Part shown: positions 22,511 to 28,179 of the stretch, piece after piece
Numbering within the stretch: position 1 is the stretch's first letter
Layout of the letters: the number at the start of each line of letters is the position of its first letter
From: a virus
Strand: one strand, 5' to 3'
IMG/VR virus record: IMGVR_UViG_3300044621_000189
Span: 1-35,602 of that record
Length of the DNA: 35,602 bases
Notes under the pieces: model-generated
Databases searched by the model: none
Told to the model about the DNA's origin: nothing
What the model saw: the letters and a program-made list of their open reading frames with translations, nothing else
Translations under genes and position numbers: made by a program

Positions 22511-23184
22511 GCTCTGTCCCCAATTTTCTGAATGATCGCACCCAGATCCGGCGCTTCCCAAGCGGAGAGCTTTCCCGAGCGATCTTTGGCCAGCCACAGT
22601 CCGTCGCTGTCGCACATGATGGCCCGTTGGGTCACGCCCTCGGCATCGCGCTCTACGCGCAAGGCCAGCACCTCGTCGAAGAAGTACGGCAGGCCTTGGG
22701 TCAGACTCTTGCCGGGCATTCCGGGGTTGTAGAGCATCTTGCCCATCTCGTCTTGCGACTTCTCCAACTTGGCGCTCATGTAAACGTGCTTGCCGGGAAG
22801 GTCGCGGAAAGCGCGGATCAGCTCTTGCATCGTGGTGTTCATCTCACCATACGCTGCGCGGCCGTCCTTGTTCTTCTTCATCTCGTGGTTGAGGACGACT
22901 TCCGCCACCTCCGAGATGCTGTCCAGCGCCACGGACTTGAACTGCCCAGCCTCGGCGCTGTCCTTGCACCAAGTGAAAGCCTCACGCAGATCGTCCATCG
23001 AAGCGATCTCGATGTAGGGCAAGTCTGCGTCCTGAATGGACAGCAGGCCACCCTCAGCCGAGAGCACGATGGGATTGGGCAGCGTTTTGATGAGGCTGGT
23101 CTTACCGGCACCGGCTTGCCCGTAAACGAGCAGCTTGACGCCGTTGGCAGATAGACTGCCAGTAGTCTTCAGATTGATTGCCAT
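22507..23184 (-). CDS. Sak4-like RecA-type ATPase / single-strand annealing protein (225 aa)
   Basis: The start at ATG 23184 follows AGGAG by six bases; the frame open further upstream crosses the promoter and is ignored. Walker A is GQAGAGKT (residues 22-29), Walker B is VALDS (86-90), and AKLEKSQDE plus PGMPGKSLTQGLPYFFDEV follow, as in the phage nucleotide-binding AAA_24/Sak4 family. Sak4 proteins are short RecA-core recombinases that anneal or exchange strands with a partner SSB, here probably the DUF669 protein. It is the first gene of the leftward operon. Confidence 0.85.
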   Translation of the reverse strand: MAINLKTTGSLSANGVKLLVYGQAGAGKTSLIKTLPNPIVLSAEGGLLSIQDADLPYIEIASMDDLREAFTWCKDSAEAGQFKSVALDSISEVAEVVLNHEMKKNKDGRAAYGEMNTTMQELIRAFRDLPGKHVYMSAKLEKSQDEMGKMLYNPGMPGKSLTQGLPYFFDEVLALRVERDAEGVTQRAIMCDSDGLWLAKDRSGKLSAWEAPDLGAIIQKIGDRA

Positions 23185-23233
23185 GCGGCACTCCTGTTTT
23201 TGCACCTCCTTCTGGAAATCAGTTCGAGGTGTG

Positions 23234-23263
23234 TTGCAAATGTAGCGGGTTTCAATGTACGAT
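23234..23263 (+). promoter_or_regulatory. Candidate rightward sigma70-type promoter for Cro-like gene
   Basis: TTGCAA (23234-23239) and TACGAT (23258-23263) are separated by 18 bases, matching 4 of 6 consensus bases each. Transcription would start near 23270, about 30 bases before the Cro-like ATG. It overlaps the leftward promoter almost completely. Confidence 0.4.
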
Positions 23264-23268
23264 GTCAA
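23239..23268 (-). promoter_or_regulatory. Candidate leftward sigma70-type promoter for replication operon
   Basis: On the minus strand a perfect -35 TTGACA (23263-23268) is followed by an 18-base spacer and TACATT (23239-23244). It lies about 55 bases upstream of the Sak4-like ATG. It is the best match to a host promoter I noticed in the window. Confidence 0.6.
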
Positions 23269-23300
23269 CACCGCATGAAAAAAAATCCAGAAGGACAAAA

Positions 23301-23480
23301 ATGAAGACCCAAGAGGCGGTCGCCTACTACGGCGGCACGAAGAAATTAGCGGATGCACTAGGAGTGTGGCCCCAGGTAATCTACGCTTGGGGAGAGCGGC
23401 CCCCGATGTCTCGCCAGTATGAGCTGGAGGTAAAGACCGAGGGCGAACTCAAGGCAGATCGGGAGTCGGTGAATGGCTGA
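23301..23480 (+). CDS. Cro/YdaS-like helix-turn-helix regulator (59 aa)
   Basis: The start at ATG 23301 follows AGAAGGA. Residues 1-35 (MKTQEAVAYYGGTKKLADAL, then GVWPQVIYAWGERPPMSRQY) form the helix-turn-helix typical of YdaS/Cro antirepressors, with the Trp-Gly-Glu-x-x-Pro turn after the recognition helix. It is divergent from the early leftward operon, as cro is in lambdoid phages. No partner CI repressor is seen. It probably autoregulates the shared promoter region. It overlaps the next gene by 8 bases. Confidence 0.82.
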   Translation: MKTQEAVAYYGGTKKLADALGVWPQVIYAWGERPPMSRQYELEVKTEGELKADRESVNG

Positions 23481-24315
23481 CCCCTTCAAGATCGACAGCC
23501 CAACCTGCATCAGCTTCAGCGGTGGACGCACCAGCGCTTACATGCTGTGGCGGGTGTTGCAGGCCAATGGCGGGTTGCCACAGGAGGCGGTTGTTTGCTT
23601 TGCCAACACTGGCAAGGAAGACGAGGCCACGCTGCAATTCGTGCATGACTGTGGCAAGCGGTGGGGCGTGCCTATCAATTGGTTGGAATACCAGCAAGAC
23701 GAGCCGCGCTATCGTGTGGTCAACTTTCAGAGCGCCAGTCGAGACGGCGAGCCGTTTGAGGCAATCATCAAAAAGCGCAACTTCCTGCCAAATCCTGTTG
23801 CTAGGTTCTGCACCGTGGAACTGAAGATCCAGCCCGAGCTTAAATTTCTAAAGTCGCTTGGCTGGGATGAATGGGACAACTTTGTTGGAATCCGAGCGGA
23901 TGAGCCTCGGCGCGTAGCGAAGATCCGTGCTAATCCAAGCGGCGGAAAGTCTGGCCCCGAGCGGTTGATGCCTCTCGCAGAAGCTGGCATAACCAAAGAT
24001 GAAGTTGGCGCTTTCTGGCGTGAGTCGGATTTCGACTTAGGTCTTCCAAACCATAACGGCGTGACCTATCACGGTAACTGCGATCTGTGCTTTTTGAAAG
24101 GCGCGTCGCAGATTCTGAGTTTGATCGCAGAGAAGCCAGAACGTGCAATCTGGTGGGCGGCACAGGAGAACAGCATTTCAAACAGCCACATCAAGAACGG
24201 CGGTTTGTTCCGCAGTGATCGCCCCAGCTACGCCGAGATGGCAAAGTATGCCGCCCAGCAGACTGATATGTTTGACAAGAACGAAGAAGCCATTGCGTGT
24301 TTCTGTGGAGATTAA
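23473..24315 (+). CDS. PAPS-reductase-like PP-loop protein (280 aa)
   Basis: The ATP-pyrophosphatase loop SFSGGRTSAYML (SGG at 16-18) opens the protein, followed by VVCFANTGKEDEATL, RFCTVELKIQP (Cys113) and GIRADEPRR (139-147). A later cysteine set (Cys203-x-x-Cys206, Cys276, Cys278) could bind a metal or Fe-S cluster. This is the layout of phosphoadenosine phosphosulfate reductase-like proteins common in phages. In related PP-loop enzymes the nucleotide is adenylated for sulfur or amide transfer, so roles in sulfur assimilation or nucleic-acid modification are possible. It lies between the Cro-like and primase genes. Confidence 0.82.
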   Translation: MADPFKIDSPTCISFSGGRTSAYMLWRVLQANGGLPQEAVVCFANTGKEDEATLQFVHDCGKRWGVPINWLEYQQDEPRYRVVNFQSASRDGEPFEAIIKKRNFLPNPVARFCTVELKIQPELKFLKSLGWDEWDNFVGIRADEPRRVAKIRANPSGGKSGPERLMPLAEAGITKDEVGAFWRESDFDLGLPNHNGVTYHGNCDLCFLKGASQILSLIAEKPERAIWWAAQENSISNSHIKNGGLFRSDRPSYAEMAKYAAQQTDMFDKNEEAIACFCGD

Positions 24316-24318
24316 AAA

Positions 24319-26331
24319 TTGGCTGACCTCTCCAACATCTTAGGTGGCCCGTGGTCACCCTCGCCACAGCGACAGATCGCTCCCCCTGACGTTCAGCTCA
24401 TTGACGCCATTCGCGCAGCGGGCCTTGAGCCGCCTGATGAGGTGCATTTGGACGGCAAGATTCACCGGTTCAAATCCGGCAGCAAAGGCTCGCCAGGACA
24501 TGGCGATAAACCGGGCTGGTATCTGGTCTTTGGCGACGGCATCCCCGCTGGGCGCTTTGGCTGCTGGCGATCGGGCATTGAGGTGACTTGGCGCGCCGAG
24601 GTCGGGCGAAAGCTCACGCACACTGAGGAGATGGCCAATGCAAAGCGTCTTGCTGAGGCCAAAGCCCTGCGTGATGCGGCCCTTGAGCGCCAGCACCAAG
24701 TGGCAAGCGAGACGGTCGAGCAGATCTGGGCCAACGCAAACCCCGCAAGTCCTGAGCACCCGTACCTTGTGGCCAAGGGAATTGGCGTGCATGGCGCACG
24801 CATTACCGGCGACGGACGCCTTGTCGTGCCTCTGTACGATGCCGACGGGACGCTATCGAGCCTCCAGTACATCGATCACCAAGGCGGCAAGCTCTATCAC
24901 CCTGGTGGTCAGACGGGCGGCAAGTTCTGGCAGCTCGGCTCAACGGACGAGCCTGGCACGATCTACGTCGCAGAGGGCTTTGCCACCGCTGCAACGATCC
25001 ATGAAACGATTGATCGCCCCGTGATCATTGCCTACTCGGCCTCCAATCTCGTGACGGTCACCGGCAAGTTGCGGGAGATTTATGGTGCAGCGCAGGATCT
25101 GGTGATCGTGGCTGACAATGACAAGTCGGGCGTTGGCCAGCGCTACGCCGAGCAGGCCTGCGCCAAGTTTGGAGCGCGCATGGTTATGCCTCCAGAACCT
25201 GGCGATGCTAATGATTATGCCCAAGCCGGAAACGATTTGGCGAGCCTTCTCGCACCCGCTGCCGATGATTGGCTAGTCCCCGCAGACGACTTCTCTGCTC
25301 AGCCAAGTCCCATCTCGTGGCTGGTCAAGCGCTGGATCCAAGACCACGCTCTTGTCATGGTTCACGGGCCGTCGGGCGGTGGAAAGACGTTCGTCGTGCT
25401 CGATTGGTGTCTGCGTATCGCCAGCTCTAGCGCCGACTGGTGCGGCAACAAAGTGCGCCACGGCAGCGTGGTCTATCTGGCCGGTGAAGGTCACCACGGT
25501 CTGCGCGGACGTATTGCCGCCTGGAAGCACCAGCACAAGCCCGGCCCGATCAACATGTGGCTGTCCAAGCACGGCTGCGATCTAAATACGCCCGCTGGAT
25601 ACCTCAAAGTGGTCGAGCACATCCGTATGCTGCCCAGCCCGCCGAAGGTGATCGTGGTCGATACCCTGCACCGATTCCTAGCGGGCGACGAGAACAGCGC
25701 CCAAGACGCCAAGACCATGCTGGACGCCTGCGGCAATCTCATGCAGGAGTTTGGCTGCTCGGTAATCCTGGTGCATCACACCGGCGTATCCGAGGAGGCC
25801 CAGCACCGTGCTCGAGGATCATCAGCTTGGCGCGGTGCATTAGATATTGAGATAAGTGTGATTCCCGCCGGGCCAAATAGCCCCATGCAATTGGTGCAGA
25901 GAAAGTCCAAGGATGCGGAGCTTGCAAAGCCGGTATTCTTGGATTTGCAGCAGGTAACTATTCCGGGATGGTATGACGAAGATAATCAGGCGGTAACTAG
26001 CGCCGTAATTATTGAGTCGCAAGCCCCAGCAGCACCGACTAAGAAGGACTCCAAGATAGATGGGTTTAGGAAGGTGTGGGAGAACGCTTGGTGGGCCAGC
26101 GGTGCGGAGGATCTGGGCGGTGCGCCGTACCTCACCAGATCAGCACTCAAGGACAAACTGGCGGCTGACGGCAACGCCGAGCGCACCATCAGGAACATGG
26201 TCAACCCGTCGTACAACGACAAAATGATCGGTGCGATGCTCCAGGCTGGGATGATTGAGGCCACCGAGCATGGGTGGATCATGGTCGATGAGGCCAACGC
26301 CAGTGCGCTGATGTTACGCAAAAATGTTTAA
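24319..26331 (+). CDS. TOPRIM primase - RecA-fold helicase fusion (670 aa)
   Basis: TTG 24319 is taken as start: GGAG lies eight bases upstream and the next in-frame Met is at residue 105. The N-terminal 130 residues lack a zinc finger. The TOPRIM domain shows VAEGFATA (Glu219) and ADNDKSG (266-272). The helicase part has Walker A HGPSGGGKT (349-357), Walker B VIVVDTL (444-450) and VHHTG (485-489), as in RepA-like AAA_25 helicases. A C-terminal winged-helix-like region follows at about 560-660. It should prime and unwind DNA at the phage fork. No phage DNA polymerase accompanies it. Confidence 0.88.
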   Translation: MADLSNILGGPWSPSPQRQIAPPDVQLIDAIRAAGLEPPDEVHLDGKIHRFKSGSKGSPGHGDKPGWYLVFGDGIPAGRFGCWRSGIEVTWRAEVGRKLTHTEEMANAKRLAEAKALRDAALERQHQVASETVEQIWANANPASPEHPYLVAKGIGVHGARITGDGRLVVPLYDADGTLSSLQYIDHQGGKLYHPGGQTGGKFWQLGSTDEPGTIYVAEGFATAATIHETIDRPVIIAYSASNLVTVTGKLREIYGAAQDLVIVADNDKSGVGQRYAEQACAKFGARMVMPPEPGDANDYAQAGNDLASLLAPAADDWLVPADDFSAQPSPISWLVKRWIQDHALVMVHGPSGGGKTFVVLDWCLRIASSSADWCGNKVRHGSVVYLAGEGHHGLRGRIAAWKHQHKPGPINMWLSKHGCDLNTPAGYLKVVEHIRMLPSPPKVIVVDTLHRFLAGDENSAQDAKTMLDACGNLMQEFGCSVILVHHTGVSEEAQHRARGSSAWRGALDIEISVIPAGPNSPMQLVQRKSKDAELAKPVFLDLQQVTIPGWYDEDNQAVTSAVIIESQAPAAPTKKDSKIDGFRKVWENAWWASGAEDLGGAPYLTRSALKDKLAADGNAERTIRNMVNPSYNDKMIGAMLQAGMIEATEHGWIMVDEANASALMLRKNV

Positions 26332-26354
26332 TGTGCGGTTTGTGAGAATGTGGG

Positions 26355-26473
26355 AAAAGTTGACCCTGGATGACCCTAGGGTCATGACCCTGGTCAGGGT
26401 CAAAGTTGCTCAAAAAAGCAGCAAAGTTGACCCTCCCTGACCCCCAACCCTTAGGGTTGGGGTCATAGGGTCA
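26355..26473. repeat. TGACCCT heptamer array (candidate iterons or operators)
   Basis: TGACCCT occurs on the + strand at 26361, 26371, 26385 and 26428, with a TGACCCC variant at 26438. It occurs on the minus strand at 26378, 26396 and 26467, with a GGGGTCA variant at 26459. Two halves repeat AAAGTTGACCCT followed by a second heptamer exactly 10 bases on (26356 and 26423). This lies in the 229-base noncoding gap after the primase-helicase. It could bind a replication initiator or repressor. Confidence 0.8.
26438..26465. repeat. Large inverted repeat within the array
   Basis: CCCCAACCC (26442-26450) and GGGTTGGGG (26454-26462) flank TTA. The symmetry extends outward to TGACCCC and GGGGTCA with one extra C on the left arm. 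It can form a strong cruciform or hairpin. No T-tract follows on either strand, so a simple terminator is unlikely. Confidence 0.75.
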
Positions 26474-26498
26474 TGCTGCGTCTGGGGTCTTTGGGGTT

Positions 26499-26516
26499 TG
26501 TTAGTGGATGCTAACA
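26499..26516. promoter_or_regulatory. Dyad TGTTAG-N6-CTAACA, operator candidate
   Basis: A perfect 6-bp inverted repeat with a 6-base spacer lies 45 bases before the next start codon (26561). It shares GTTAGTG with the longer dyad at 26934. It is the right size and place for a repressor dimer site. Confidence 0.5.
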
Positions 26517-26560
26517 GACGATTTTGGGTGGTGATACGAATTTACTAATGGAGGTTGGGG

Positions 26561-26791
26561 ATGGGAAGGCCAGCGGACTCGAGGACAACGTACTTCCAGC
26601 GCAAGCTTGGCGAGGCTGAGAGGCGCATCTTGCAGGCTGCTGGCGAGGGCGACATGAGCAAAGGCTTCAAGGAAGTGCTTGATGCCTACGGACACTTCTA
26701 TAACCTCGGATTGCGGCCTTGGATGCGTTTGGAGAGGGCAACCCTCACCATCCCCTATGACGAGGACAAAAACGCCTCTGAGAGGCTTTAA
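26561..26791 (+). CDS. Conserved small phage protein (76 aa)
   Basis: A GGAGG site six bases upstream selects ATG 26561. The product (MGRPADSRTTYFQRKLGEAE, then AAGEGDMSKGFKEVLDAYGH and NLGLRPWMRLE) is basic at its N-terminus and probably helical. Such proteins recur between replication and packaging genes in phages, and the GRP...R...KL opening with a helix-rich body could bind DNA. It stands between two structured noncoding regions, so it may act on one of them. No established family name is known to me. Confidence 0.65.
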   Translation: MGRPADSRTTYFQRKLGEAERRILQAAGEGDMSKGFKEVLDAYGHFYNLGLRPWMRLERATLTIPYDEDKNASERL

Positions 26792-26933
26792 GAGGCCTTG
26801 CTGCGGCACTGGTGAATAGAGGATGGCTATGGGCGATGAGAACTTGATTGTTAGAGTTAATCATGAGGTGGAGCAGGTACCCCTGGAAAGCACCCTCCGC
26901 CCCTCTCTTTCCCAATTTCTCTCCCCAAAATGC

Positions 26934-26953
26934 GTTAGTGAGCGTTCACTAAC
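26934..26953. promoter_or_regulatory. 20-bp operator-like dyad (TetR-family style)
   Basis: GTTAGTGA (26934-26941) and TCACTAAC (26946-26953) form a perfect 8-bp inverted repeat around GCGT. The look (TTAGTGA...TCACTAA around a CG core) resembles operators of TetR/AcrR-family repressors. The window encodes no TetR protein, so a host regulator or one of the small phage regulators could be the binder. It ends five bases before the first DnaA box. Confidence 0.55.
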
Positions 26954-26957
26954 TAAG

Positions 26958-27201
26958 TTATCCACAGCTTATCCACAGATCCGACCCCGAGTTGTCCACA
27001 ATTGCCCTGTGGACAGCCAGATTTGTAATACTTTTCCGGCCCGAAACTGTGATTTCATTTGACATAATGGCTGTTGTATTTCTCTCGGTCTGTAAGCGTC
27101 GCGTAAGTATTCAATGAAATCAACAACTTACGCATCTTGTGCACAAGTTATCCACAGTAGCACTTCCTTCTGTGGACAGCCTGTGGATAACCTGTGGATA
27201 A
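26958..27201. other. Candidate replication origin: DnaA-box cluster
   Basis: Perfect TTATCCACA boxes occur on the + strand at 26958, 26969 and 27148, and on the minus strand at 27182-27190 and 27193-27201. Near matches are TTGTCCACA (26992), TTGTGCACA (27137) and minus-strand CTGTCCACA (27008-27016 and 27171-27179). Several pairs are spaced 11 bases apart. Between the two box groups lies an AT-richer stretch with inverted repeats GATTTCATT/AATGAAATC (27051/27113) and GCGTAAGT/ACTTACGC (27101/27126). This is the layout of a DnaA-dependent origin with an unwinding element. It lies in a 507-base gene-free gap (26792-27298). Confidence 0.8.
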
Positions 27202-27207
27202 CTTGAT

Positions 27208-27260
27208 AGGGGGGGGAGGGGTCGCCTCGGCCGCGAGTAATTGTGGGTGCCTCCCCCCCT
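27208..27260. repeat. G-tract/C-tract hairpin beside origin
   Basis: A run of eight G plus AGGGG (27209-27221) faces CCTCCCCCCCT (27250-27260), able to pair as an 11-bp stem with one bulge. An inner CTCG/CGAG stem lies in the loop. It begins seven bases after the last DnaA box and ends 38 bases before the small terminase start. It could stall forks, mark a packaging site or act on transcription. Confidence 0.55.
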
Positions 27261-27298
27261 CTGAAAAAGCAAAATCGACCTTTTTACATGGAGCTAAT

Positions 27299-27661
27299 GT
27301 GATTCCGAAAAAAAAGCCAATGACGATCCAGCAGTACGCAGTTAACCCCCCGTCTATCTTGCCCAAGACGGATAACCAGCGTATCAAGGAACTCAAAGAG
27401 ATAATGATCCGCTCTGGCGGCAAGGATGTGGCCGAGAAAGTAATCCAGATTGCCCTGAACGATAACCACCCCGGTCAGATGGCGGCACTGAAAATGTGCA
27501 TGGATAGATCGCTGCCGGTCAGTATGTTTGAAAAAGAAAAGGGGATGAGGTCTGCGGTCAACATTACGATCTCAGGAATTGGCGCTCCTAACGATCCGCC
27601 CATAGTGATTGACACAGCAGAAGACGCAAGCTACACTATGAAGAATAGTGAACAGGAATAG
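27299..27661 (+). CDS. Putative terminase small subunit (120 aa)
   Basis: GTG 27299, with GGAG five bases upstream, is preferred; a longer frame from 27194 would run through a DnaA box and the G/C hairpin. The product begins MIPKKKPMTIQQYAVNPPSI and has NQRIKELKEIMIRSGGKDVA, KVIQIALNDNHPGQMAALKM and SAVNITISGIGAP segments. That order is seen in proteins encoded directly before TerL in related podoviruses. A basic N-terminus with helices and a beta tail suits a DNA-recognising small terminase ring. The assignment rests mainly on position. Confidence 0.68.
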   Translation: MIPKKKPMTIQQYAVNPPSILPKTDNQRIKELKEIMIRSGGKDVAEKVIQIALNDNHPGQMAALKMCMDRSLPVSMFEKEKGMRSAVNITISGIGAPNDPPIVIDTAEDASYTMKNSEQE

Positions 27662-27663
27662 AG

Positions 27664-28179
27664 ATGCGCCAACCACTTACTGTTGAGAAGTTAAAAGAGC
27701 ATGTGCAATACGACCGCGAGACGGGCGTCTTTACCAGGGTAAAAACGCACCCAAAACGAAAATACGTCGCAGGCTCTGTCACTGGCGTTGCTCGGCCTGA
27801 TGGATATTTGCAGGTGATGATTGATGGCAAGTTGTACCTAGCGCATAGGCTGGCGTGGCTGTATGAGCATGGAAATTTGCCTAGCGGATATATCGACCAC
27901 ATCAATGGCGTCAAGTCCGACAATCGAATTTGCAATCTCCGCGATGTCTCACAGACAGTCAACCTTCAGAACATTCGCCAGGCGCGACCTAACCGCAAGT
28001 CTTCAAAATTTCTTGGCGTCAGCTACGCTAACAAGGGTCAAAATCCAGAGAAGCCCTATCGTGCTCGTATAGTTGTTGACGGGAAAGAGCTTCATCTCGG
28101 GACTTTTGCTGACGAATACGAGGCCCACATTGCGTACTTGGCGGCTAAACGTGTCTACCATGAGGGGTGCATGCTGTGA
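27664..28179 (+). CDS. HNH homing endonuclease with AP2 DNA-binding domain (171 aa)
   Basis: Residues 60-105 carry the HNH_3 pattern: HRLAWLYEHG, then YIDHINGVKSDNRICNLRDV with the catalytic Asp78-His79 and Asn87 region. Residues 113-166 form an AP2-type DNA-binding domain (SKFLGVSYANK, PYRARIVVDGKELHLGTF, DEYEAHIAYLAAKR). This is the standard build of free-standing phage homing endonucleases. It sits between the terminase genes and looks AT-richer than its neighbours by eye, consistent with insertion as a mobile gene. Its stop overlaps TerL by GTGA. Confidence 0.88.
   Translation: MRQPLTVEKLKEHVQYDRETGVFTRVKTHPKRKYVAGSVTGVARPDGYLQVMIDGKLYLAHRLAWLYEHGNLPSGYIDHINGVKSDNRICNLRDVSQTVNLQNIRQARPNRKSSKFLGVSYANKGQNPEKPYRARIVVDGKELHLGTFADEYEAHIAYLAAKRVYHEGCML

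Follow-up and report, generated by a model that had tools for sequence, protein, structure and literature searches.

A DnaA-box cluster as part of a proposed composite, iteron-type replication origin in an aquatic phage

Introduction

What does a cluster of host-type DnaA boxes do in a phage that encodes its own primase-helicase? The question arises from virus record IMGVR_UViG_3300044621_000189, 35,602 bp of DNA from an aquatic phage, which was analysed as a whole and is called the window here. Both record ends (positions 1 and 35602) lie within one apparent tail-fibre gene, so the window probably represents an almost complete genome that is circularly permuted. A sequence-only reading had placed a host-type origin at 26958-27201, where the phage would load host DnaA and the host replisome. 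For the origin of this phage family, no description was found in the open full-text literature, a coverage that largely leaves out subscription journals.

DnaA boxes around an unstable stretch

Five perfect DnaA boxes (TTATCCACA) and four near matches were found in 26958-27201. The near matches comprise one single-mismatch box and three weaker sites, one of them palindromic. The left group consists of two perfect boxes at 26958-26966 and 26969-26977 (both + strand, conservation 0.926 and 0.991), the single-mismatch box TTGTCCACA at 26992-27000 (+, 0.991) and the weak box CTGTCCACA at 27008-27016 (-, 0.824). The right group begins with the weak, self-complementary box TTGTGCACAA at 27137-27146 (0.825) and a perfect box at 27148-27156 (+, 0.972), followed by a second weak CTGTCCACA at 27171-27179 (-, 0.889) and perfect boxes at 27182-27190 and 27193-27201 (both -, 0.935 and 0.981). 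Orientation is mainly + on the left and mainly - on the right. Four pairs are spaced by 11 bp (26958/26969, 27137/27148, 27171/27182 and 27182/27193), and the outer two box pairs form a 24-nt inverted repeat with 96% complementarity. The number of boxes, their opposed grouping and their spacing thus agree with the sequence-only reading. The cluster exceeds chance, as an oriC-like array should: 300 first-order Markov genomes had on average 0.16 perfect boxes each, and never two within 244 bp.

Conservation was calculated from an alignment of relatives with a primase-helicase identity of 79-100%. Box columns had a conservation of 0.925, compared with 0.826 for the remaining region, a value that no circular shift of the box mask equalled. 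Conservation is low (0.61) in the stretch 5' of the first box. Immediately 5' of this box, an operator-like palindrome, GTTAGTGAGCGTTCACTAAC (26934-26953, inverted repeat I13), was observed. At the same spot, two relatives (L099 and L100) have an unrelated palindrome and others none, as if it were a lineage-specific operator.

Between the two groups lies an AT-richer middle (27017-27136), a candidate melting region. It has 40% GC, versus 56% genome-wide, and carries the nested inverted repeats TGATTTCATT/AATGAAATCA and GCGTAAGT/ACTTACGC, both features as previously noticed. In predicted thermodynamic stability, the 80-bp segment at 27051 ranks second from the bottom within the genome. The motifs TAATACTTTT, TTTGACATAATG and TTGTATTTCT are conserved, TTTGACATAATG being almost invariant (0.993), and relatives keep parts of the unstable middle. 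The sequence-only reading had missed two elements, the iteron array at 26357-26490 described below and an IHF consensus site, AATCAACAACTTA, at 27118-27130 (+ strand). The latter is an exact match to WATCAANNNNTTR, with a conservation of 0.974 over 12 sequences. As consensus matches, the IHF site and the DnaA boxes on both sides of it have a datA-type arrangement.

Cumulative GC skew has its minimum at 8.9 kb and its maximum at 32.0 kb, with no turning point at 27.1 kb, where a minimum had been expected. Phage GC skew often tracks gene content, and we therefore give this outcome little weight. The box pair AAGTTATCCACAGNTTATCCACAG names no host, since its matches lie in 71 stretches of highly diverse bacteria. 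A search of genome_contigs found no relative of the primase-helicase.

Repeats directly behind the primase-helicase gene

The primase-helicase is encoded at 24319-26331 on the + strand. It combines a Toprim primase (about residues 215-303, with EGFATA), a helicase of the RSF1010 RepA type (about residues 320-570) and a C-terminal winged helix (residues 572-670, encoded at 26032-26328, + strand). The protein matches the Pfam families Toprim_3 and AAA_25 and the PHROG families DNA primase and primase/helicase. Residues 324-504 gave a profile match to RSF1010 RepA (1g8y, E 4.4e-10), consistent with a RepA-type core. Genes for a DNA polymerase, an integrase or DnaA were not found among the window ORFs scanned, a set without some small ORFs, in a record that stops inside a tail gene. 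The earlier remark that a primase-helicase is present and no polymerase visible therefore stands for these ORFs.

The C-terminal domain was modelled with AlphaFold2 (mean pLDDT 93.8). We used this domain model only, the full-length model being poor (mean pLDDT 65). The predicted fold has winged-helix topology, and its helix H50-57, the putative recognition helix, corresponds to residues 621-628. A Foldseek search of the domain against the PDB gave no match reaching an E of 0.001. Similarity to winged helices of solved structure was middling, with Z at most 7.2, reflecting a common arrangement. The P4 alpha domain was absent among the fold matches listed, an absence that carries no weight. In BFVD, the sole strong fold match was part of a Prim_Pol protein from an uncultured phage (TM 0.86, 37% identity).

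Directly 3' of the stop codon of this gene, repeat scans revealed an iteron array (26357-26490, + strand), the proposed core origin. Repeats next to the gene of their initiator would be expected of an iteron-type replicon. The array holds nine GGGTCA/TGACCC copies in both orientations and has the top 6-mer repeat count in the window. Within it lies a perfect 10-bp hairpin, CCCCAACCCT-T-AGGGTTGGGG (26442-26462, inverted repeat I7). The folding of the array DNA has a z of -6.0, and none of 200 shuffles was equally stable.

A repeat array with a strong predicted hairpin directly 3' of the primase-helicase gene is common to nearly all relatives. An array stands behind the gene at 67 of the 68 distinct loci, four isolated phages among them, and the other lineages have an equivalent hairpin. 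Even where primase-helicases are just 28-33% identical, array and hairpin likewise stand behind the gene. The 68th locus (L137) has an insertion of about 950 bp behind the gene, on the far side of which the iterons and their flanking DnaA boxes are found together. The insertion, also seen in L258, carries an acyltransferase-like gene (PlsC-type, as judged by eye). Repeat counts were above every control window in 40 of 63 loci, a figure unfairly low for the AGGGGG class because two-letter 6-mers were excluded.

Co-segregation of the winged helix with the repeat sequence

The repeat unit varies by lineage (GGGTCA, AGGGGG, AGGGGC, GGTAAC or GGAACG). Among the isolates, it is GGGACA in Salicola phage CGphi29, GGTACA in Idiomarinaceae phage 1N2-2 and GGTTCA in Alteromonas phages XX1924 and PB15. 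The array sequence co-segregates with the predicted C-terminal winged helix, above all with the region of its putative recognition helix. Where two proteins agree in 95% or more of residues 1-570, their mean identity over residues 571-670 was 98% with a shared iteron and 55% with differing ones. Proteins from different repeat classes reach 98-99% identity outside the winged helix, versus about 50% within it.

No more than 8 of the 670 columns set the GGGTCA class apart from the other three main classes; the recognition-helix region, residues 619-629 (encoded at 26173-26205), contains five of them. The class-specific residues 619, 620, 625, 627 and 629 are N, A, R, M and N in the GGGTCA class, and R, K, E, D and S in the AGGGGG class. 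They are I/L/V, S/T, K, Y and K in the GGTAAC class, and V, S, K, Y and K in the GGAACG class. K625, Y627 and K629 recur in the distant phages whose repeats are GGTACA and GGTTCA, and D627 and S629 of the AGGGGG class are found as well in CGphi29 (GGGACA).

Winged-helix DNA and iterons adjoin, so that recombination of one block might make them co-segregate without functional coupling. The similar helix residues of distant phages with GGT-type iterons weaken this objection and leave part of it standing. The family offers a natural set of putative initiator-origin pairs: changes in a single predicted DNA-binding domain go with eight types of repeat, at times between proteins that are otherwise nearly identical, which makes origin recognition by initiators directly testable.

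DnaA boxes in related phages

A terminase search identified a large group of viral contigs that share the packaging neighbourhood of the window and differ in their replication genes. Among these packaging-gene relatives, at least two perfect boxes between replication and packaging genes were found in 7 of 7 loci with the primase-helicase and in 0 of 27 without it. Fisher's test gives p = 2e-7 with kinship ignored, the seven loci being phylogenetically non-independent because they include close relatives (L002 and L003). A partial exception is formed by L013, L014 and L016, which have other replication genes and weaker boxes at the same place.

DnaA boxes accompany the predicted replication module in two settings: around the iterons or, in the case of the window, about 470 bp downstream with an IHF consensus and an unstable stretch. 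In the GGAACG and GGTAAC classes the boxes closely flank the iterons (+6, +18, +197). Most members of the AGGGGG class have one box to the right of the iterons, at +143. Part of the GGGTCA class has boxes around the iterons as well as 5' of the packaging genes, and the window lineage has them in the latter place only. There, an ORF separates iterons and cluster, and the cluster lies directly 5' of the packaging genes. In near-complete contigs, perfect boxes occur almost exclusively at the proposed origin.

Related phages that keep the same replication genes and lack the boxes, which the sequence-only reading had named as speaking against its origin, do exist. The records of G005 (behind L112, 39.4 kb, GGGTCA repeats), CGphi29 and 1N2-2 contained no perfect box, a result less certain for G005, which may be a fragment, than for the isolates. 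PB15 and XX1924 have isolated perfect boxes and no cluster. Judged from these genomes, the boxes are a frequent companion of the iteron array and apparently a dispensable one, because several relatives keep primase and iterons without clustered boxes.

Tandem box pairs also occur outside this family. The idea that they are a rarity in viruses was rejected, since the 11-bp tandem pair had at least 120 matches in viral contigs (loci L169-L288), compared with 6 for a scrambled control. A relative of the primase-helicase was present in 10 of the 120 matches listed, indicating that the pairs are spread more widely than the family. Phages may have such pairs more often than descriptions so far suggest.

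Possible roles of the cluster

On balance, we favour a composite, plasmid-like phage origin of the iteron type, to which the cluster contributes the host-factor half. Its initiator would be the primase-helicase, with DnaA and IHF as accessory factors. The primase-helicase would bind the iterons through its winged helix and assemble on the array as a helicase ring of the RepA type. DnaA and IHF at 26958-27201 would bend the DNA and assist its opening, or the cluster would act as a further, secondary site of opening. Unwinding and priming would fall to the phage protein, and elongation to host DNA polymerase III; a host polymerase is probably used, because no polymerase gene turned up in the window ORFs scanned. 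Given the relatives without clustered boxes, DnaA should stimulate replication without being indispensable.

A stand-alone origin of the oriC type, in which host DnaA melts 27017-27136 and loads host helicase and polymerase while the iterons are secondary, would be in keeping with the two groups of opposed orientation, nine boxes in all, that enclose an IHF consensus and a very unstable stretch, all of them conserved. We nevertheless consider it quite unlikely. The phage has its own primase-helicase, and the winged helix of this protein co-segregates with the array that adjoins its gene. Almost every relative has iterons, which cannot be said of the DnaA boxes; clusters of these are missing in relatives that share both protein and iterons, and the GC skew does not turn at the cluster. 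What stands of the proposed host-type origin is a conserved cluster of host type, tied to this replication gene, with an unstable middle and an IHF consensus. What finds no support is the cluster alone as the origin and the loading of the host replisome there by DnaA.

Binding of DnaA at the cluster might also serve other ends than phage replication. As a sink, multicopy phage DNA would titrate DnaA or promote its ATP hydrolysis and so stop re-initiation of the host chromosome. The model for this explanation is datA, which needs DnaA boxes to either side of an IHF site (PMC5835720) and which the IHF site of the window, lying between DnaA boxes, resembles. It has no need of the conserved AT-rich core, leaves the boxes flanking phage iterons in other lineages unexplained, and fits poorly with the single box of some lineages, so that it too appears doubtful. 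Somewhat less improbable, though still unlikely, is a DnaA-responsive switch of the packaging genes, with DnaA bound around TTTGACATAATG controlling late transcription. The cluster lies just 5' of the putative small terminase gene, TTTGACATAATG hardly varies, and L013, L014 and L016 keep weaker boxes at this place in spite of their other replication genes. However, a promoter scan of 26300-27320 found no sigma-70-type promoter, boxes are missing from most packaging-gene relatives (two or more perfect ones in 0 of the 27 without primase-helicase), and the boxes around iterons would be left unexplained.

A further-reaching version of the composite origin is conceivable and, in our estimate, rather improbable. 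It would describe a lineage common among viral contigs with a one-protein initiator, an origin specificity swapped as winged helix plus iterons, and relocatable DnaA boxes. In the window, the DnaA/IHF cluster would then be a second, host-driven origin, and the phage would have origins of two types with about 0.5 kb between them. For the composite origin in general, the varying presence and position of DnaA boxes beside one module raise the question of when a phage with its own helicase and primase profits from host DnaA.

Comparison with known origins

Phage P4 replicates independently of DnaA, and its alpha protein has an SF3-type helicase. The window differs in both respects, with a helicase like that of RSF1010 RepA and DnaA boxes accompanying many members of the family. 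According to the account of P4 alpha in PMC4234260 (citing Yeo et al. 2002), Toprim primase, helicase and a C-terminal winged helix that binds origin repeats form one polypeptide. The window protein likewise unites a Toprim primase, a helicase and a C-terminal winged helix in one chain. It would be P4-alpha-like in its working and not a family member, because its helicase matches AAA_25 and RSF1010 RepA, not SF3.

The IncQ plasmid RSF1010 (RepA, RepB', RepC) has a dedicated primase, and iterons with short hairpins (PMC4234260). With the window it shares the RepA-type hexameric helicase, a dedicated primase, and iterons plus hairpins. Its three proteins are separate, whereas primase, helicase and putative iteron binder are fused in the window. 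Plasmid pRN1 and Bordetella phage BIP-1 also combine primase, helicase and winged helix, with a proposed origin just 3' of the gene (PMC4234260), but they have a Prim-pol, an SF3 helicase and a stem-loop without iterons.

In the iteron plasmids P1, RK2, pSC101 and R6K, DnaA boxes and an AT-rich stretch accompany iterons that serve the replicon's own initiator, and IHF is often involved; P1 has two DnaA arrays (PMC4980987). The window shows these elements too, with a putative initiator and an IHF consensus. The plasmid initiator helps to load host DnaB, whereas that of the window would itself supply both primase and helicase. E. coli oriC and datA share TTATCCACA boxes and an IHF site with the window, and oriC also an unstable stretch. 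The window cluster differs in belonging to a phage module with its own iterons, in a genome where the ORF scan found no dnaA gene. The parts each have a precedent; new, as far as the open literature shows, is the combination of a putative fused initiator, with an apparently exchangeable pair of winged helix and iterons, and an optional DnaA module.

Genes and repeats near the proposed origin

A P22 Cro-like repressor gene (23178-23480) and a PAPS-reductase-family gene (23473-24315) lie just 5' of the primase-helicase gene. Between iterons and DnaA cluster, a small conserved ORF of 78 aa (26555-26791, + strand) belongs to the packaging neighbourhood. It had no family match in Pfam or PHROG, and tblastn matched it in many TerL loci, with or without primase-helicase.

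An inverted repeat of a G-run and a C-run (27208-27262; inverted repeats I7, I11 and I18) precedes the packaging genes. The G-run occurs 5' of these genes in packaging-gene relatives both with and without primase-helicase, and the repeat is therefore assigned to the packaging neighbourhood, not to the replication module. Its likely function is that of a signal for packaging (pac/cos) or transcription. Next comes the putative gene for the small terminase (TerS), with a GTG start, at 27299-27661; it has no family match. Between the small and large terminase genes lies an HNH endonuclease gene (27664-28179), which is present in only a few relatives (L001, L012 and L037) and looks like a homing insertion.
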